DNA of 64,000 nt from Antedon mediterranea (lineage: Eukaryota; Echinodermata; Crinoidea; Comatulida; Antedonidae). A model generated the notes under the pieces. The model searched no databases. It was not told the origin of the DNA and saw only the letters and a list, made by a program, of their open reading frames with translations. This document shows positions 12,607 through 56,300 of this stretch, piece after piece. The stretch's first letter is position 1; each line of letters opens with the position of its first letter. The position numbers and the translations under genes are program-made. The DNA lies in assembly GCF_964355755.1 (NCBI RefSeq), contig NC_092679.1:20884932-20948931 (forward strand). Direction: 5' to 3'.

Positions 12607-14592
12607 AGAATATATTTGTAGGCCTACTTAAGCAGTTCTGTAATTTCTGACGATGAGTCAAATGGACCTCGCGTCCGTAACTATTTTCTTTTTTTCTATA
12701 TAAATTTTATCTAAATATATATATTAATTTTAAAATTATTATAAGGTTGTAGCTAATTTTAGTACCTAGGTATAGTTTTTATAGACCAAGGAAACTTAAT
12801 ATCCGGAGGCAGTGGTTCTAATGAAAGATTTCAAAACACTGAAAAGCAAGCACACATACACTCAAGAATAAAGGAAACATATCATAGGACGGAAGAATCT
12901 AACTATATTATTATAATATTATTATAAAGAAATTAATTCTTGAGGGCTTAAGAAAAATAGGCCTACCCGAGAGGAACACGGAACGGAAGGCTGGCACTTG
13001 GTTTTGCGACGATCAGTATATATCTCCCCATCTTATACCATGGAGTAATTATTACTCCGGCCATGCTTAATACTGTGAAATATCGAATTTATATTTGACT
13101 GAGTTTCACGAAAGCTTTCTGTTTAACTTATCTACTTAATGCTGTGGGGGAAAGGAAAGAAGTGGGTGTGTAACAACAAGTACTTCTTTTTGAAATGTAA
13201 AATAAACTAAAAACAACTATGTTTTTTTTTTTGACACACTTCATTTTGATGCTAAATGTCGGCGGTCTTGTTTTTTTTTAATGTCAGGACAGGCACCACC
13301 TTTTCCAACGGTATTCGACTTTGCCTATACATTGTCGGATTCCCTTTTTTATTTATAGATTTGTACCGCTCTCCGGGGGCTCTTCGTTTGGCCTCATCGC
13401 CTATGCTATTTTCTTTCCCTACCGGAGAGCATTTTTCTGTTTATTCATTGCAATGCTGTTTCCGGTTTTCGCGTGGAGAATTTCTTTTGTCTATTACTGT
13501 ATGAGTGTTTTTCTGCTGTTTCCTGTTTGGGCAACCCTTTTTCACTATTTATAGATTTCTATTATCACACTTACCGTGACGTTTTTATTTTGATAACGCT
13601 TATGAATCGGGTTATAAAAGTTTCATACGAAAAACTTGTAAACAAGGAAATAACAACAACAGCAAATTATGTTACCATCGTGACTCAGGGCCGACTCAGT
13701 TGTAAACATACAGCGAAACAAGGGACAATGCAGCAACCTATCCTATTATTATTTTACTCACAAAAAAGCAGCAACATTATTGGATGAAGACATTTGTCAA
13801 CCAACCAATCATGGAGCTACCTCTCCATGAACCAGCTTCAGCTTTTGAGTTCCAGTGTAGTAAATACTGTAGGCATACAAGTATTTTTGCCGATATGGTT
13901 ATATTGTGTGTTTACATTGGTATACTGTACTTTCATACTATAATACGGTAATTATTTTCATATTGTCAGGTTTCGATCGTCAGATTTCACTTTTTGGTAC
14001 AATCAATAACCTGGTTCGTATGTAATGTTTATACTGTTTAATATTTTCTTGTAGTCAGGTTTCCGCTGCTGTAGATGTCACAGAGTCAATTGTTTAATTT
14101 ATCCTTATCCTAATCCATTGAATTTACACGTTTCTTTTCCCCCATTTTCGCCAGAAGCGATTTATATGTAATTTACTTCACTGAAAACTTATATCTGCGT
14201 GGACATTGACATACCCTTGATCTGAAGATAAGTGTCCGAAATGTAATTATTCAATCTATAAGTCAAGTTGCTGGACTAACCAAATTTCTATCACCTATTT
14301 TTATTGGGGAGAGCTCGATTTAAAGGTTTGGTCATTGTTACAATGGTCACTCTTTCCTATAGGCTTACTGCGAATAATAGAAAATAATTGTTATGTTACA
14401 CAGGGATTTATGTCTGATTAATTACATTTTTAGTACGGTATCTTGTCATCATTCTTGGTGGAGAAAATACGCCATCCCGACCCTGGCCTTGTTCATTATC
14501 ATCTTTAAAATAAACATATAATACCGTATTATTGGAATAACGCCTCGCTTTGAATAAACGCGCCCCTCCTCTCCCACTTTACGGTAATACAT
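12607..14592. other. Gene-free stretch upstream of the repeat-protein gene
   Basis: No reliable exon was found. ORFs at 13256-13787 overlap in three frames and run through a pyrimidine-rich segment with imperfect repeats (TTTC...CCGG...GAGA), so they are not accepted. Upstream exons or the promoter of the gene at 14623 could lie here but cannot be placed. Confidence 0.35.
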
Positions 14593-14622
14593 TTGTTTTA
14601 TTTGGTAGAGTTTCAATTATTT

Positions 14623-15405
14623 ATGCAGATGATGGAGCCTGAGAAATATCTCGAACAGTCGGAAAGCGAAGATAATGATGATGAAGAAAATATCGGTGTA
14701 CCGATACAAGTATCGGAGGAAGGAGGTAGGCCTAGTATTGAGAGCGTTCGAGTCATATCACAACTAGGAATTGACGAAAATCCGACAGAAAAGCAAATAA
14801 ACTACGAGAAAGAAAATGGTACCTGTATACCACAGGAAGGACACAGTGTTAAGAGTATTGAAGTGTTGGAGGAACGAACGAAATCACAACCAGGAGGAAT
14901 TCCCAAACAACCGAAAAGGCAAATAAACGATGAGAGAGAAGATATCGGTATGCCGACTCAACTATCAGACAAACGAGATATGGTTGCGAGATCGAATAAA
15001 GTAAAGTCACAATCCGGAGGAATTTCCAAACAGCCAAAACGCCAAATAAACAATGAGAGAGAAAATATCAGTATGCCGATTCAAGTATCGAAAAAACGAG
15101 ATATGGTTTCGAGATCGAATAAAGTAATGTTACAATCAGGAGGAATTCCCAAACAACCAAAAATGCAAATAAACGACGAGCGAGAAAATGTCGGTATGCC
15201 GATTCAAGTATCGGAGGAAGGAGATCGTGTTGAAAGTATTCAAGATACGTCACAACCAGGAATACAAGAACAAGAAATTTCATTCCAAATAAATGAATTC
15301 TGGCGGAGCATGCGCGTCAGACGACCTGTTCAAGAAGTGGGGACCGGAGCTGTCGTGTTTCATGATCCTCTCTATTTGAGCATTGAAGAGCAGAACAAAA
15401 ACTAA
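14623..15405 (+). CDS. Lineage-specific protein with 41-residue repeats
   Basis: Open for 260 codons from ATG 14623, or 258 from ATG 14629, which directly follows a possible splice acceptor (TTTATGCAG). The N-terminus is very acidic (EQSESEDNDDEEN). The middle holds three close tandem copies of a 41-aa unit starting at 14884, 15007 and 15130, with core GGIPKQPKRQINDERENIG followed by MPIQVS; two degenerate copies precede them. The C-terminus (FWRSMRVRRPVQEV) is basic and unrepeated. There is no signal peptide or membrane segment. The repeats keep the frame, with no stop or frameshift, which argues for coding. AATAAA lies at about 15494, so this is probably a terminal exon; upstream exons are not identified. 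The family is not recognised. Confidence 0.55.
   Translation: MQMMEPEKYLEQSESEDNDDEENIGVPIQVSEEGGRPSIESVRVISQLGIDENPTEKQINYEKENGTCIPQEGHSVKSIEVLEERTKSQPGGIPKQPKRQINDEREDIGMPTQLSDKRDMVARSNKVKSQSGGISKQPKRQINNERENISMPIQVSKKRDMVSRSNKVMLQSGGIPKQPKMQINDERENVGMPIQVSEEGDRVESIQDTSQPGIQEQEISFQINEFWRSMRVRRPVQEVGTGAVVFHDPLYLSIEEQNKN
14884..15249 (+). repeat. Tandem 123-bp coding repeat
   Basis: Three adjacent units: 14884-15006, 15007-15129 and 15130-15249 (the last one codon shorter). Differences between units are scattered substitutions and no unit has a frameshift. Confidence 0.75.
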
Positions 15406-17125: not shown

Positions 17126-20100
17126 TCACACATGTTTTATGGTGTATTTTCCTTTTTGCAAGTTTGAAAGATATAATTTTGATTTTGTGCCGTCATTCAA
17201 TTTTAACCAGATTTCACTTGTGTTGATGGATGTAATAACACCACTGCAAAAAAAAAAATGAAATTAGGAAATTGTTTGAAATTACCTAAAAATAGCAGTA
17301 CTTTAATGCTCTGTCTACACTATCAAACGGGTTTGACAAAAAAATGTGATGTGTCCAAATATGGTAATGATATGACATTATCATGTCCAGTGTGATGTGC
17401 CCAAAATTGGTAGTGGTATGCTTAAATATGGTAGTGATATGACATCATCATGTCCATATATGGGCACATCACATTTTGCTGCCACATTAAGTTTGATAGT
17501 GTGGTCTTCATCAATACCTCTACAAAGTATATTTGAGATTGTTCCACTTACCGGATGGGTGTATCCTCTCGTTTCTCTATAACCACGTTTGACGACTTGC
17601 CGAACCATAAACCCTCGTAACATAATCGTCCATCCTCATATCTAGCGCTGTATGGATGCCTGTGAGCTTCTGACCGATACACATCTATAAAAAATAAATG
17701 GTTTCCATGATTTTAGTGTTTTTTAGCTAACAGCACAGTAGTTGTCACTCAACATCTCGAACACTGAACATCTTGCGACATAGCACACTTAACAAGACAA
17801 TCAGTGCGGCCAAAGTGTGCATAGACTTCGTATCATTTTTATTCATGTGGTTTGGGTCATCCTCTTGAATATTCTTATAGATTTGTATAGAGCTCTTTGC
17901 GCTGGAATATCAGAGTCTATACAAAGAAGGTGTCCACACCATATCAACAGGATAAACATCAATATTATTAAAATAATGAAATCAACAAATCTAAACTTAC
18001 GATCAGACTTTCGCCTGGCACTGCTTGTTCCTCTGGCCTAAAACATTAAAAAGTAAATATATTAAACAACTGGAAAAATACATCTGAAACATTTGTGAAA
18101 TAATATAACATTTTTTAATTTTAATAAAAACAAATTGGAATTTCAGGTCTATAGAAAATAAACATAATCATTTGTATACATAAAAGTATATTCAGTAACT
18201 TTACACCTTTTAAACAATTTTTCTGCCAGAACAGAACATTTTTAACAATTTCAGAAAATCCTGTGTTTAATCTACAGAAATTATCATTTATGGTTAATTT
18301 ATTGGTACAACATAATTGAAAGCAACATATTTCTCATACCTTCATAATTGCTGTCCAGTCTTCAAGAATTTCAAATTCTCTCAACATGTACACAATAAAA
18401 GGACGTAAAATAATTGTTAAGAAATACAAAAACCGTATCAAAAATATGTCAACTTTATTTATGATGTTTTCTCTGTACATCCATACTCTACATATGATCT
18501 TTATCTGGTAGGTGTCGCCATCGGTGAAGTAAAAAAGTGCTCTAAAGCAACGTCGGGGTCACTACTATAATGACTCTGCACATCACTATGTGTTTTCACC
18601 GGAATGAAGAAATAAAGACCAATTTATAGTGAAAGGGAAAGAGAGTTTTAATTCTCAACATGACCATTATATTCAAATTATCTTACGCAGCAAACAAATG
18701 TCAAAAAGGAACTCATTAATTATTCATAAAATCAGATTGTGCATATAAAAATTAATATAAGGCTTCAATTCTTTAACAGAACACAAATTTAGGTCACAAC
18801 AGTGGATATGTTTCACTTCCCGACTGGATTTTTATAAATATATACAAGTGTCATTTCAATACAACACTGTAACGTCTCTAAAGCTCTGTCTACACTATCA
18901 AACTTTATGTGTCAAAAAAAATGTGATGTGCCTATATATGGTAGTGCTTTGCTTAAATATGGTAGTGATATGACATCATCATGTCCATATATGGCCACAT
19001 CACATTTTGTTGACATATAAAGTTTGATAGTGTAGACAAGGTTTAAGACTTTGTTAGCAAACTGTGTATACTGTACTATGACAAATGAATATTAAAGTTC
19101 AAATATTACATTGAAAAGGATATCAGAAACAGCTATAGGTTTTTTCTTCTTATCCGGATGAAGAGGATCGGTTTTTCGTAGATGTTTCTTTTGAGATTCA
19201 TTCCACAATTCTTTTTAGAGAGGGAAAAAATAAAATATTAAATAACAAATACCTGTATTTTCATTTCATCATAGAACCATGACATATTATTTATATGTTA
19301 TTTTAAGCAATATTTTTTAAAAGCAATACACTAAAAAACTGACCTGCAGAAATGTCAATATTGTGGCGGTCTTCCTCTAACTTTCTAATTTTTTCCTCAA
19401 GATCCGCACGGAATGCATCTTTCAAAAGAATTTTTTCACTCTGAAAAGATAATAGTTAGTATAGGTAGTTTGCTCTTCCAGAAAATCAGTGTAAACATAA
19501 GGATGTTTTCTACAAAAACGCTCGATGAAATTGTGCTGGCCAAGAACACCCACCTTTAAAATCGTCCATTTATTTGAAGGCCTAATTTCACCCAAGAAAA
19601 CTATAGGTACCAGAAAGAACTGGTTTATTTTTGTTCTTAACAACCTCTAACCTTTTAACAACCATCACTAGACTTCTCTAACCCAGAAGTAAATTATCTC
19701 CTCTTACCTCATAATGTTCAAGCGCTGCTTTTCCTTCGCACTCGTATGCATTCTCAATATTTTTCAGTTTCAGCTTACGAAGGATACCACATATATGCAG
19801 GGTCATCTGAGTGTGTTCTTCAAGTTCTTTCAACGGTTTTAAGTATTCTATGGCATATTCTTTGTGAACTTCTTCTAACTTTGAATCAACTTGGCTTAGG
19901 CGTTCATGATATAGTCTAGCAGAGAATAATACACAATTAAATAAAACCACTATTACCTTGTTTACTCTTTTAATCTCAGGATTTTCCAGAGAAATAGGTA
20001 GGTAGAAAGATATTTGCCAAATTTCAGTGGCTGGTCAACATTTAATGAGTGTCAATTTGTGGTTAATAGACAGATTAAACTTTTTCTTAACAATATTGTT

Positions 20101-20816
20101 TACTCTTAAAATAACTATTAATGAAAATGTTCAATTTAACTAACTTTTATTTTATTTCTGTAAAACTTTATTTTATTTTCAATAACATGTTACAATTACT
20201 ATACTGTACACAAATTTGTTTTTCCTCATTATCAATTTATTGAATTAAAATATGTACAGTGGGCTAATAATGTTTAGTTACAGTATTCATCTCATTTGTT
20301 ACAATTGCTGTACACTAAAATTGTCCGAATAGAAAATCAAACGTCTAAATAATAATAATAATAAACAGTATTTATATAGCGCCTAATGGATCACTGACCC
20401 CTCTAGGTGCTTAACATTAGACCTTAACTAATGGTAATAAACTATCCCCCGCCGGACACCATTCCGGTATTTCTTAGACGAGGTTTCGGGGATGGAGAAA
20501 TTTATATTCAATTTTAGGAATAATAATTTTGGATATTACTGTACTGTATATGAAAACCCAAATGTATTGAAATTATCAACATTACGTAGCTAAATACTAA
20601 AACTTACATTTCTTTTAAATCTGAAAACTGAATTTCAAGATCAGTCATGTCATCAAAACATTCAGTTTTTCGTTTATCACATTCTTCTTCATCCATGTCT
20701 AAATTAAAAACAAAGCAATATCAAAGTCTAGATAAAAAAAAAAGTAACAAACCGAATAAGCCTGTTGTTAAAATGGAAATGACATCGCTGCCAAACAAAG
20801 AAAAATAATAATGTAT

Positions 20817-20853
<37 letters not shown>

Positions 20854-21470
20854 GGTATATTGAAATATAGTCTCTAATCCCAGTGGTCACAGGGACAGTG
20901 CATATTTCAGCCGCCAGGCTTTACCAAAAAAATAATAATTAAGAATTAATTAATTATGAATTTAGGCAACCAAAATGATACTGACTCAGACTGAATACTA
21001 AAATGCTTTATTTGTCCAATAGAAATTCATCTTAAATATTTGAAAATATTAGTAAGATAAAAAAACAGATAAATATATTTATATAATTAATACTAGGTAC
21101 ATACAGTACACACACATTATGTTGCACAAAACTAAGTTTTAAAATACGATAAATATGCATAAAATGCTTAAAAATAAAAAGTTCAAAATTGATAAAAATT
21201 TATTTAAAAAAAAAATTTACAGACAGATCTCAGCTAGCCAGAATAAGTAGGCCTAGTTCTTAGGCCGGATCATCCGCTAGGCCCAGGCCCAATGTGATTG
21301 ATATTCAAGCAGCGGGAAAACTCACCAGAACTATCATCAGAGCCAGAGTCACTGCCCGTTCCTTCTTCCATATCGTCTCCGTCGGTTTTTTCACTGTGAC
21401 TATCAGGTGTACTGTCTTCTTGTGCCATATCTTCTTGATCACTATCAACCTCATCTCGAGTAGAAGGCAT
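17126..21470 (-). CDS. BRMS1L: BRMS1-like transcriptional repressor, 9 exons
   Basis: Subunit of nuclear Sin3-HDAC corepressor complexes, in the Sds3/BRMS1 family. Exons: 21470-21326, 20698-20608, 19915-19708, 19440-19344, 19210-19124, 18404-18340, 18037-18001, 17684-17552, 17243-17126. They total 981 nt, 326 aa, and all phases close; human BRMS1L is about the same length. The N-terminus is acidic ([16 protein letters not shown]). The Sds3-type coiled-coil region starts at about residue 49 ([17 protein letters not shown]) and continues with [13 protein letters not shown] and [17 protein letters not shown]. Then GPFIVYML at 210-217, ILEDWTAI, and the C-terminus [18 protein letters not shown], close to human. 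The start is the first ATG, before the acidic tract. Intron 5 is AT-AC; the others are GT-AG. MITEs sit in introns 5 and 8. Orthology could be to the BRMS1/BRMS1L ancestor. Confidence 0.95.
17304..17508. mobile_element. TA-flanked MITE, copy in BRMS1L intron 8
   Basis: Terminal inverted repeats of the family GCTCTGTCTACACTATCAAA and its complement, degenerate on the right here (GATAGTGTGGTCTTC). The core has three imperfect units around GGTAGTGATATG. It lies wholly within the intron. Confidence 0.75.
18405..19123 (-). other. U12-type AT-AC intron (BRMS1L intron 5)
   Basis: The 5' splice site reads G|ATATCCTTTT, a perfect U12 AT-AC donor. The 3' end reads TTTCTTAAC, AATTATTTTAC and then the exon. 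The branch sequence differs at one base from TTCCTTAAC, and its adenosine (18417) lies about 12 nt from the AC end. There is no polypyrimidine tract and no AG nearby. Joining 19124 to 18404 restores GGT CCT TTT ATT GTG TAC ATG (GPFIVYM), the expected family sequence. The intron is 719 nt long and contains a MITE. Confidence 0.93.
18879..19045. mobile_element. TA-flanked MITE, copy in the AT-AC intron
   Basis: Ends TAAAGCTCTGTCTACACTAT and TTTGATAGTGTAGACAAGGT, with a core of two GGTAGTG-type units and TGACATCATCATGTCCATAT. The copy leaves the U12 donor, branch site and 3' end untouched. Confidence 0.8.
20346..20510 (+). repeat. Dispersed repeat, SINE/LINE-tail type
   Basis: It starts at an AAT microsatellite and continues TATTTATATAGCGCCTAATG with CCCCTCTAGGTGCTTAACAT. 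Segments of this kind (TTTATATAGCGCC...) are common dispersed repeats in marine invertebrates. It lies in BRMS1L intron 2. Confidence 0.4.
20819..20855. repeat. AAT microsatellite
   Basis: An uninterrupted AAT run of about 11 units in BRMS1L intron 1. Confidence 0.8.
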
Positions 21471-23947: not shown

Positions 23948-26900
23948 ATGGATATAACTCGTGGGAGCTTAGATGAAATTACCAGACCAGCAAGCAGTGA
24001 GCGCTGGCGTCCTGGTAGCCGTGTTTCCCTCTCAAATGCTAGTATAAGAAATACACCAACTCCTTTACAGAGTTCATTGGAAATACTGCTGCCAGATAAC
24101 CTTGGATTTCAGGTAAGATATACTATACCTACACACACACACACACACAAAAACAAGGAAGGTGTACTAAACATATTGATGAATAGTAGAAAAAAACTGG
24201 TATCCCAGCTCGTAATTTAAGAAACAACAATATCCTCTCTTTTCCCTTTAGTAGAGTCAGTTTACTCTAAAAACGTTTATAATCGGTCTTCCTCTGTTTA
24301 GTATTCTTGAGTTTGTGTAACTGTCTTTTGTTTCTGTTAACCATGCTGTGGTGGATTTGTTTGATGCTGTTGTTTTTGATTGGCCAAGGCACTCCCAGTT
24401 GCTCTTGTAATATACCCTCTAAATGTTACATAGAATTTGAACACATGCTGTATTGGCCTATTGGTTTTTATATTAAGTAGATTGTTAAAAATATATTATG
24501 ATGCATATTCTCATTTGAAGGATGAAGACCTAGAGGTTGAAGAATATATTTCACCAACAGAAGAATTTGAGAAAGATGAGGATTACACAAGTGAGTAAAT
24601 GTTTTAATTTTAGGTTAAAGATATATTGTTCCCCTTAAAAAGTAATATAAAAAAAAAATTGTAATTTAAAATAAAAAATTGTCAAATTGTCTATTGACTA
24701 TACAATGTATTTTTGGTTATATTTAACAGTTTATTTTGTCTTTATAAGTAAAACTATTATTTTTGTTAATTTGTTTTCCATGGAATTGGAAGTGAATTAC
24801 TTGATTGAAACTACAAAATTACATTCAAAGTCTGATCTTTTTTTTTCATGTTTTTTGGGGGCAATACATCTTTAAGTTGAACAAACTATTTTTACAAAAC
24901 ATACAAATCATTCTGTAAAAATTAGTAAATAAACACCAAAGCTACAATTAATTGATATCTCAATAATGACAACTAATAATGAAATCATCTACCCTGTGGT
25001 TGTTTTAAGTTGCCTATTATTGGTTTGTTTATTAGGCGACATACCATGCGAAAACAATGCCAATGTTAATCATAGTGGAGAGGAACAATCTGATCATAAT
25101 GATGAAGAAAAAGAAGATAATGATCACATGGATCCAAAGATTAAAGAGGCAATCAAAAAGATGGAAAAACTAGATCGTATCCTTGCAAAGAAAATGAAAC
25201 GAGAGAAGGATGTAAAACGAGAGAGACTTCTTCTGGAACAGAAGCTGCTTGAGGAGTTGGAGAGAGCAAAACCTGTAGGCAGACAGGAAGCAAAGGAATC
25301 GGCAGATAACACTGTGAAATTCCTGGCTCTCAAGCCACCACCAAAGCACTACGAAGGTAAGTCAAATTTACTAGCTGCAGCATTCTCCCATAGTTCATAG
25401 AATAGAGAATATAAATTGCTTCCCATCTGTATTAAAAGTGATGTAAGAAAATATAACATAAAGTAGGGGTAGACAGGCCTTGCTATTAAAACATTATTAC
25501 TGTACATTAACTGGATTGAAAAAATACAATTATATTATATATATTATATTTTTTTAGATTTAGGTAAATCTTACACTATACTACTTTTTTGGTTTTGGTG
25601 CCTCTCTTAGTTGTCTGGAAATTCATTTCTAAATTGGGAGAACGCTGACACCTTTTTAGAATTATCAAAATTATATTCCGGTAGATTTGTTTCTGTAACT
25701 GTGTCGTCAATTTTTGTGTCTGCTAAAAGTAAGTAAATTACAAGTACTGTCGTTATTGATGTAAGTGTCTTTTATTCCTTTTAGGTATCCTTACAGAAGA
25801 GGAAGAGGTTTGCTTCTCACCTTTATTTGCAACACAGCCTACCGAAATAAACACCAACAAGAATTCTGGAGAGTCTGCCAGTGATGGTGCCAGTACAACC
25901 AGATCAGGTAAATAACGCATTTTTTGAAAGTGTCATTGCCGAAACTGTTAATGTATAGTGATATGTTTTCTTAAATTCGCTCATACTTAATATATATATC
26001 AGGTTATATTTATTATTATAAATTTATATAACAACATACATAGAGAAGGCAGTCAAAAGCTGAAATTGTCTGCAAACAATAAAAAAAAAATAGCTCAATA
26101 AAATGGCACACACTAAAAAACAAGTTATAAAAATATGTTAAAAAAAAATGTTTTAAAAGTTTAAGATAAATACACTACAACCTTTTAGAAGATTCAATAA
26201 CTTTGATTAACCTTTTCATTGTATATATGAAGATAATTTGTCATAGTGAAGTGAATTAATAATACTATCCTGGATTTATAAAGTGCTGACAACAAAATAA
26301 TACTTCACCTTTTCAAATGTCGATCTGTGTTTGTACAAACCAGACTTATAACTTCCTCCACTCTGAAGAAACATAAGCAGATGTCTATTTAACATCCTAA
26401 TACACTATAACAAGAAAATATTATTTTCTAATCTAAAATAATTACATTTTTTATGTAGAATCTACCGGAAAGTGCTCTACAGGGAAATTCTCAACAAGTA
26501 GTCGTCAAACTTCTGGCACCAACAAAAATAAAAAGGGAGCTAAGAAAGGGAAAACAATTACTAAGAAAAATAGTATAGATTCAAAAGATGAAGTGGACTT
26601 CATTCACAGAAACATTCAGGTAAAATAAAGATGTTTGATTTGTTTGTTTATTGTCATACAATTAATAAAATAGTTCAAATGGTAATATCAATTGTAGTTA
26701 TTGTAAAGGCCACTTTACATCGTACGACAATGCAAGATAGCATTGGGCGTAGTTTTCAGGTCGTTGCGAGAACTTTAGACATGTTTAATTTTCATCGGGC
26801 CTCGTTGTACAACGCTGTCATTATCACTATTTTATAATAAAATATATCGCCCTCAATTTGGTGCAAATAATCATCTATGTTGTATTGTTGCAATATCAAA

Positions 26901-53300: not shown

Positions 53301-56300
53301 TTGATACAAAAAATATGTTTTATTGTCGGTTACCATCTGGACAAACATTAACACTTGATTGATTAGCTGACTGCGTGATTTATCCTCCTTTTGATTGATT
53401 GATTAATTGATTGTCTCCAATTCATCAAAGTTATTTGATATATGTATTATATACCACAGGAAAGGAAATTGCCAGCCATTTCAGACAGGTGTTTATTTCA
53501 GTCTGGTCCAAATCCCATACAATGTTGTTGCCTAATTGCTTGTCTAGAACATTTATCCCTTTGAATGTCAAGGCGGCTTTGCACAAAGTTCCTAACTTAG
53601 TTCTTTTAGGATTATTTTGTGTTATTCGATTCTATTCTGGAGTTTGGATTAGTTTAATTTCTTTGGCGGTTTTTGGATGTTTATTCCAAGGTCGTATTTT
53701 CAGAACATATTTCTATTTTTTTCGTTTAAGATATTTGCGGTGTAAAGGTCCTAACTTCAAATCTTCTGCTGGGTGATTACTGTAATATGAAAAACAGGAC
53801 TGAATAAAAAAGGTAAATGAATAAATTACTAGGAAAAAACCTTTCCAGTACAATTCCAGTCATTTTGATATCCCATGTGTTTAAATAACGATACCAATAA
53901 CTGTACAAACTGCCTTACAATACATTTATACAAATATAACTGGCTCAATTCAATTCATTAAAACTTTATTTAGCCATGGAGGCCCAGATCAACACATGAA
54001 TGTTTTTACCTGCGTCGGTGCACATAAAAAAACAAATACAATTTCAACAATGTTTTAATAATATTATGTAGGCCTACATTATATAAATATATATTTAAAT
54101 GGTATGTTAATGTTTTTTTGGTTGTAGAGCGGGGGTTAACCCTTGACCAATGACTGTAGTATGATCAGTAGTTGAATTATAACAAAATAAAAGCATACCT
54201 GCCCAGGTGTTCACTTTGATCTTTAACTTTCATTTTTCATATTAATGAAAGAATTATATTAAAATGATACAGGTTATAGATACTGTTACCGGTTAAGCTT
54301 TGTTGCGTGCTTGAGTAGGTAGCTTTGAAGTACCTTGCGTTGATGTCGGTATTATTTGTACCATTGTATTGACGGTGTTGTAGTTGTCGTATCGGGTGTA
54401 ACAACAAACCTTTGGTTAATAGTTGTTGCCTCCAGGCTTGGAACACTCTTTTCTATTCATATGAAAACTATAAGGAATTATACAGTACTTGAGCTTGATG
54501 TGGGATTTTGGCATGTGACAGTTCGGATCTAATCTTTGACCAAAATTAAATAACTTACGTATTCTTTATAATACTCTTTTGATTTTGGTTAATCCAGCTA
54601 ATTTGATTGTGCCAATTAACCTTCAGTCCCTGTGGGTACAATGTTATCCCTACTTCAACCACCTGTGTTTGGACTTGGATGTTGATATTGACCATTTCAA
54701 TCAATGGTAAAGCTTTTAGTAAATCAGTGGTCAATACCTCAATTATCTTTATGAATAGGAATGTACTTTTGATTCTGTATTTCAAAATATTTAGAAACAA
54801 CTTTTGAATCTTATGCCATGCATTTTAAAATGTTGTATTTGTAAATACTGTAGTTAGTATTCTGTAATGGCCTTGTTAAAATCACTATATTAAGTGATCA
54901 AGTTTTCCGTTTTCAAATAAATTATTATTATTATTTCTACAGGTATACTCATAGTGTTGAAAATAAATAGCTCCATCATTGTGTGAATATCCTTTCACAG
55001 TTTTGCTTTGGTTGATTTACCAAAACATTTTAATTTTTGTAAATGCTTGTTCTGATGCTTTAAAAGCGGTTACCTCTTTAATCATCCAGAACCTCCATTT
55101 TATTTTTTCTTGACCGTTCAACACCGACTTTTGATGTCCCGTCAATGAACAATTCATTAGAGAGACTTTGGCGACACTTACCTTATAAACATGTGTATTC
55201 GTCAGAAAGGCCCATGTGCTGCATATTCTATAACTGAATTGTTCCTTCCGGATTAGGTTACAGGTCCTATTGTGCTACCTAGACTAATAGGCTATTAGCC
55301 TGATCTCTGGGGTAAATCTTCAACGATATTTAACATAAAAAATATTTGTCAAAAACAACTTGGAAATAAACAGGAAGATGTATATTTTGACTTTTGTTGT
55401 ATTCCTCCCATGAGAGAGGTTTTTGGTTCACAGATTAAAGGGGGTGAATTGTGGTTTTGGAAATATTTGGTCTTATTTACACTGTTGAATAAAACACATA
55501 TCTTAAGGGTGGGATCTAGAAATATATAACAAGTGATTTTACATTATAGAAATAGAAATAATAAGTTATTTATGAGAATTGTTTTAGATTTTTTGCACTG
55601 TCATGGTTTAGGTTGAAATTCTAATTTTATACAAGGGAAAGGAGACAGTAAAGTAGTAAATGGAATAGAGCATGTTGAGTAGCATATCCATGTACCTCAT
55701 GAAACAAGCTTAAACCTAGGCATAGGCCTACACAAATCGATTGAGAGAGGGGATACAGTTGACTTGTGGACCCCCTTCTCCTAAATTACAATGCAAAAAG
55801 ATAGGACATTAGATTAAGTCCAGCACTTTATTTTGTGACCATTTTAAGCCCTTGAAACTCCCTCCCTTCTTCCCCTTCCCCCAATTTCGAGTCCCTGCGA
55901 CAGATACTGTGATAGGCAGTATGTTTTACTGAGCTCAGTTCTTTACTGCATTGTAAAGGTAAAAGTAGTCGCACATCATAGCACTACACTGGAGGGGGAG
56001 TGGTGTGCCCACTGTAGTATGACCCCACGGATGATTTAGTGGCAGATTGTACTTGACGTCTATTGATGGCAAGAATGATTAATGGGGGTTAATTTCCATG
56101 CACTGTAGAGTACCTATTTAACACATTTACCATTTTTTCTTGGAACTTTTCATCCGGATATTCATTCGTTTCAATGGTATTTGTCATTATATTCATAGTT
56201 AAATAAACATAAAAGTATGTTAATCTGCCTGGCAGCCCCTGGTACCTTTCTTTTCGTCTTTATTCAAATCACAATTTCATTATGCTTGATGTTTTTGATG

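Follow-up and report, generated by a model that had tools for sequence, protein, structure and literature searches.

The closest described counterparts of the intron analysed here are human. The corepressor gene BRMS1L is listed among the minor-intron-containing genes that are U6atac-limited (PMC3728624), and intron 7 of SUDS3 is described as a minor (U12) intron (PMC8280824; PMC11039992). In human cells depleted of CENATAC, 92% of A-type minor introns are affected, compared with 24% of G-type ones (PMC8280824). According to the available text of a further study, SDS3 and BRMS1 are paralogues that were already present in the animal ancestor, the intron set of BRMS1 is largely conserved to sponges, and the fungal relationship of the BRMS1/SDS3 genes is not fully resolved (PMC13173789). 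The literature compared, each paper to the extent that its text was available, includes PMC13173789, PMC6072441, PMC8280824, PMC3728624, PMC11039992, PMC2831892, PMC6865273 and PMC10639083. In this text, and among the top-ranked papers reached by broader searches, no published statement was found that BRMS1 and SUDS3 share an AT-AC intron; the term "U12" is absent from the main text of PMC13173789. The window, i.e., the whole 64,000-nucleotide stretch that we analysed (G000:C10:20884932-20948931), belongs to a 354-Mb assembly of 18 contigs, and its features central to this analysis are a BRMS1-family gene and two of the exons of that gene:

17126..21470, minus strand, BRMS1-family gene (Sds3 family, PF08598); encodes 326 aa in 9 coding exons, with an open frame across the joined exons
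19124..19210, minus strand, exon 5; 87 nt, ends ...KKPIAVS plus G
18340..18404, minus strand, exon 6; 65 nt, its first segment is aligned with the part of SUDS3 that shows the match to the solved Sin3-interaction peptide

Structure and identity of the BRMS1-family gene

Seven of the eight coding introns of the gene (introns 1–4 and 6–8) have GT-AG termini, and intron 5 has AT-AC termini. A Pfam search places the Sds3 domain at residues 64-183 of the predicted protein (PF08598, E = 1.9e-19). Across the genome, PF08598 matches at E <= 1 fall in three places, i.e., the window gene, a gene on C3 with nine coding exons encoding 317 aa, and one sub-cut-off match on C5; the last was dropped, as its sequence reads by eye as what we take to be a large RNA polymerase subunit.

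Against PDB chains, the window protein matches SUDS3 (7sxi, 3.2e-12; also 4zqa) and the coiled coil of BRMS1 (2xus, 5.1e-9; also 4auv). When the chain matches of the two genes are compared, the window gene appears to be BRMS1-type rather than SUDS3-type: matches to the BRMS1 chains (2xus, 39 bits; 4auv, 27.9 bits) are made by the window protein and by none of the paralogue, whereas the SUDS3 chains score higher with the paralogue on C3 than with the window protein (7sxi, 92.2 versus 49.5 bits; 4zqa, 54 versus 24.3 bits). Two signs run counter to this orthology. The single best chain of the window protein is SUDS3 7sxi, because the chain table held no C-terminal part of BRMS1, and weak yeast matches are crossed, the window protein going to SDS3 and the paralogue to DEP1. 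No second BRMS1-type gene was found: at E <= 0.1 the protein search listed 8 matches, every one of them in the window gene. The same search did not list the SUDS3-type gene either, which limits what a missing match can tell. The name BRMS1L, used in the earlier note, is a loose label where only one BRMS1-type gene is found in the genome. For an invertebrate species, the better name is BRMS1, a co-orthologue of vertebrate BRMS1 and BRMS1L.

Termini and signals of intron 5

Intron 5 and its signals lie as follows:

18405..19123, minus strand, intron 5, AT-AC, with U12-type signals; 719 nt, phase 1
19114..19123, minus strand, 5' splice site ATATCCTTTT; positions +4..+10 able to pair with U11 and U6atac
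18416..18424, minus strand, branch-point sequence TTTCTTAAC; its two adenosines precede the intron end by 13 and 12 nt
18405..18406, minus strand, 3' terminal AC; the intron end reads TTTTAC

The boundaries proposed in the earlier note are exact: 19124 is the last base of exon 5 and 18404 the first of exon 6, and both exons are well supported. The AT and AC termini sit at exon borders fixed by the coding sequence, and the spliced exons read PIAVS-G-PFIVYML in phase 1 within the 326-aa open frame. The donor ATATCCTTTT, the AC end and a TTTCTTAAC adenosine about 12 nt from the end, on which that note had relied, are all present, with adenosines at both 13 and 12 nt. Its description of the intron as having no GT or AG is correct for the termini but not beyond them.

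U12-type introns have the donor consensus RTATCCTTT, a branch consensus close to TTCCTTRAC, and a short distance between the branch and the 3' splice site, about 10-20 nt. Relative to these consensuses, ATATCCTTTT fits the donor at 9/9 positions and TTTCTTAAC fits the branch at 9/9, if C or T is allowed at positions 3-4; the branch-to-3' splice site distance of 12-13 nt is within the U12-type expectation. The donor and branch scores (of 9) are 9 and 9 for the AT-AC intron of BRMS1 and 9 and 8 for that of the SUDS3-type gene, against 3-6 for the donor and 5-8 for the branch (best of 36 offsets) in the 14 other introns of both genes (13 GT-AG, 1 GC-AG).

Counted over both strands of the window, [AG]TATCCTT is present at 8 of 127,760 positions; for an AC or AG end with YCTTRAC 8-21 nt upstream, the count is 37 of 127,760. 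The joint chance of both signal sets at a single junction that the reading frame dictates is then 1.8e-8, an estimate that assumes independence and includes the intron 5 site itself among the counts. In a window as AT-rich as this one, the ten-letter donor is unremarkable by itself (1 seen against 0.49 expected), so the weight rests on the combination of signals at a forced junction. Every sequence-level feature that we examined agrees with the U12 AT-AC class, as the earlier note proposed; intron 5 very probably belongs to it.

A sequence scan of both strands gives 8 other loose candidates for U12-like donor/acceptor pairs in the window. Another ATATCCTTTC donor-like site is seen at 54987 on the plus strand, with TTTCTTGAC and an AC downstream; no gene is known there, and it is probably due to chance.

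Intron 5 also holds a repeat:

18877..19048, minus strand, palindromic MITE-like repeat in intron 5; about 172 nt, from inverted and direct repeat analysis

Without this repeat, intron 5 would be about 547 nt long. The end motif of the repeat, at <=2 mismatches, is found 8 times in the window versus 0.01 expected. Intron 8 of the BRMS1-family gene holds a related copy (17301-17504), and the SUDS3-type paralogue likewise has a palindromic MITE-like repeat in its own intron 8, with limits read by eye (L010, about 2120-2262). Two plus-strand open frames were observed elsewhere in the window: one at 24933-25397, beside the BRMS1 gene on the opposite strand, matches the FSIP1 family (PF15554, 3.5e-18), and a 283-aa frame at 14554-15402 has imperfect internal repeats by eye and no Pfam match at E <= 0.001.

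Minor-spliceosome components and a control intron in the same genome

A search of the same genome with Rfam models gave, all over the Rfam cut-off, U12 (125.7 bits), two copies of U11 (88.6 and 82.9 bits), one strong and one weak copy of U6atac (136.6 and 33.7 bits) and U4atac (97.6 bits; presence only). The two U11 copies, at G000:C5:11057853 and G000:C8:13519935, are identical over their first 13 nucleotides and diverge just after. The weak U6atac-like sequence (G000:C7:8523554-8523655) is shortened and scores barely over its cut-off of 33; it is perhaps a pseudogene. The Rfam scan of the window itself gave nothing at the gathering score.

With positions +4..+10 of the intron 5 donor, U11 (nt 2-8) and U6atac (nt 10-16, GAAAGGA) could each form 7 pairs, 1 of them G-U. 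With TTTCTTAAC, U12 (nt 18-25, GUAAGGAA) could form 8 pairs, 1 of them G-U, leaving an adenosine bulged at 12 or 13 nt before the end of the intron. In the AT-AC intron of the SUDS3-type gene, 6, 6 and 8 pairs are possible with U11, U6atac and U12, respectively, with the bulged adenosine 11 or 12 nt from the end. U12 could also form uninterrupted runs of similar length beside the branch site (7 pairs at UUAUUUU), so that the pairing fits the U12-type reading but cannot alone single out the branch.

A CENATAC (CCDC84)-like gene is found at G000:C8:4683900-4688400, with 5 exon-level PF14968 matches, the best at 1.2e-17. Three PF05253 matches were considered as U11-48K and rejected; 1 of 14 control genomes is also over the cut-off, and the PF05253 domain is found in other proteins besides U11-48K.

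As a positive control we used STX6, the sole control gene tried. Its intron in the same genome is of the AT-AC class (ATATCCTTGA ... TTCTTTAAC ... AC), with the junction ...ACAATTG/ATATCCTTGA ... TTCTTTAACATATTTGTTTTAC/GAATTGTGG..., where slashes mark the splice sites. Judged against the human STX6 protein, this join presumably restores the conserved STX6 sequence. In the available text of PMC2831892, an AT-AC intron of STX6 is known from fly CG7736 and the human orthologue, and in fish the intron has switched to GT-AG.

An AT-AC intron in the SUDS3-type paralogue

The window protein and the SUDS3-type paralogue are 30% identical (89/296 aligned positions). Intron 6 of the paralogue is also AT-AC and U12-like, ATATCCTTTA ... 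CTTCTTAAC ... AC (in its full form ATATCCTTTA...TTTCTTCTTAACTAATAACCAC), 389 nt long and in phase 1; the exon ends that flank it are C3:34019027 and 34019417. In five terminal classes, 32 pairs at this junction keep the frame and FLLSDEEIVDDI, i.e., 19 AT-AC, 7 AT-AG, 5 GT-AC and 1 GT-AG, and the lone GT-AG pair would delete most of exon 6. SQIDFLL is given by 4 of the 32 pairs and KQTPSQIDFLL by the chosen pair only. A second AC three bases upstream keeps the frame as well, with the product KQTPSPQIDFLL, so the exact end of this intron is less certain. SQIDFLL aligns with AQLNYLL of the SDS3 Sin3-interaction peptide 2n2h, a weak match to a short peptide (E = 0.0096), which puts the AT-AC intron of the SUDS3-type gene at the edge or start of the solved Sin3-interaction helix. 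In the same gene model, the last intron is GC-AG (G000:C3:34020662/34021022).

In the alignment of the two proteins, the AT-AC intron falls at column 224 in the SUDS3-type gene and at column 226 in BRMS1, with a gap beside both; because the gap adjoins the site, the mismatch is ambiguous. For five of the eight introns of each gene, the phase is shared and the positions lie within two columns of one another, three at identical columns (90, 160 and 192) and two nearby (226/224 and 248/250). None of 20,000 random intron placements reached five agreements.

Could the two AT-AC introns have arisen independently? The two-column offset would allow it, as would the intron ends, which by eye are unlike except for the signals. 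Phase and subtype, however, are identical, and for four further introns the phase is shared and the positions differ by two columns at most. In the available comparative work, moreover, loss is the commonest fate of minor introns, U12-to-U2 conversion is rarer and only one U2-to-U12 change is described. We consider an independent origin improbable. A common origin is the simpler account: the phase-matched AT-AC introns occur in two genes reported to have been distinct by the time of the animal ancestor (PMC13173789), so the AT-AC state most simply predates the duplication. On the basis of this one genome and the published human minor introns, the AT-AC state is probably older than the BRMS1/SUDS3 split. 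We do not push the date further back, because the fungal relationship of these genes is not fully resolved.

Alternative splices between exons 5 and 6

The earlier note held that only the 19123/18405 splice gives GPFIVYML and keeps the phase. We enumerated the pairs of splice sites that keep the frame and preserve the downstream protein segment: with any dinucleotides there are 5,964, among them 61 AT-AC, 4 GT-AG and 2 GC-AG. The AT donors 19168 and 19153, used with the same acceptor, also make GPFIVYML in phase, and delete the stretch before it, so uniqueness fails for that motif. It does hold for the longer product PIAVSGPFIVYML, which among the GT-AG, GC-AG and AT-AC pairs listed is yielded by 19123/18405 only. 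The 6 GT-AG and GC-AG pairs, which may occasionally be used, would insert 28-38 residues.

Under a rival proposal, the AT-AC signals are fortuitous and the true splice is a GT-AG one, joining, e.g., 19109 or 19130 with 18505 or 18499; alternatively, both splices are used, as a twintron. Four GT-AG pairs do preserve the frame, and two-class twintrons have been reported, in the text available, in vertebrates and insects. Yet each of the four would add 29-38 residues that are absent from the paralogue, U12 signals would arise at the forced junction with a chance of about 2e-8, and these signals recur in the paralogue; we regard this proposal as very improbable. Least likely of all, and hardly credible, is removal of intron 5 as an AT-AC intron by the major (U2) spliceosome, for which there is precedent in the 85 human major AT-AC introns or related subtypes mentioned in the CENATAC paper (PMC8280824, available text), but against which stand the C at +5 and TCCTTT at +4..+9 of intron 5, where the major AT-AC introns of sodium-channel genes are described as carrying G at +5, the complete U12 branch sequence near its end and the published status of human BRMS1L as a minor-intron gene (PMC3728624).

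Proposed mechanism and effect of retention

For intron 5 as a U12-type AT-AC intron, the following course is suggested by the pairing potential. U11, and then U6atac, would pair with ATATCCTTTT; U12 would pair with TTTCTTAAC and leave the branch adenosine bulged; and the AC that follows 12-13 nt after that adenosine would serve as the 3' splice site. The intron, in its AT-AC form, was probably already in the gene from which BRMS1 and SUDS3 descend, prior to the diversification of animals.

Translated in silico, a BRMS1 transcript retaining intron 5 would reach a stop after 10 further residues, giving 219 aa, and a SUDS3-type transcript retaining intron 6 would reach one after 21 further residues (...KQTPYILYYNLCINCQILKYQQIFR*), giving 218 aa. 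Retention would therefore cost SUDS3 its Sin3-interaction helix, BRMS1 the aligned segment, and both proteins their C-terminal domain. Taken as a whole, the explanation that the minor spliceosome removes intron 5 as a U12-type AT-AC intron, that the intron was inherited from a pre-BRMS1/SUDS3 gene and that its retention truncates the reading frame in each of the two genes appears to us highly likely from the sequence evidence. A more far-reaching idea is that one intron predating the duplication has been kept, in a subtype that is hard to splice, before the Sin3-binding segments of two Sin3-HDAC subunits, and so lets the level of the minor spliceosome or of CENATAC set how much of either subunit enters the complex; we hold this to be speculative and rather unlikely.

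Comparison with known systems

A minor intron in a BRMS1-type gene is not new in kind, as a human counterpart is published, and the surprise implied in the earlier note is smaller because the minor-intron dependence of human BRMS1L was already on record (PMC3728624). That human intron belongs to the same gene family as the window gene, and is presumably at the position of intron 5; its number and termini are not given in the available text of PMC3728624, nor did the literature text at hand give the class of its counterpart in human BRMS1. The minor intron of human SUDS3 is numbered 7, whereas its likely counterpart in the SUDS3-type gene of this genome is coding intron 6; the human intron would be AT-AC, its termini not being stated in the available text of PMC8280824 or PMC11039992. 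The STX6 intron is of the same AT-AC U12 class as intron 5, in an unrelated gene. The intron comparison of PMC13173789, in the text available, covers brms1 and brms1-like genes with SDS3 outside it, whereas the present work compares BRMS1 with SUDS3. What this comparison adds is that two ancient paralogues of one corepressor complex carry same-phase AT-AC introns at nearly the same place, and the BRMS1/SUDS3 pair thus provides a matched test of whether minor introns are kept for the co-regulation of partners or by inertia.
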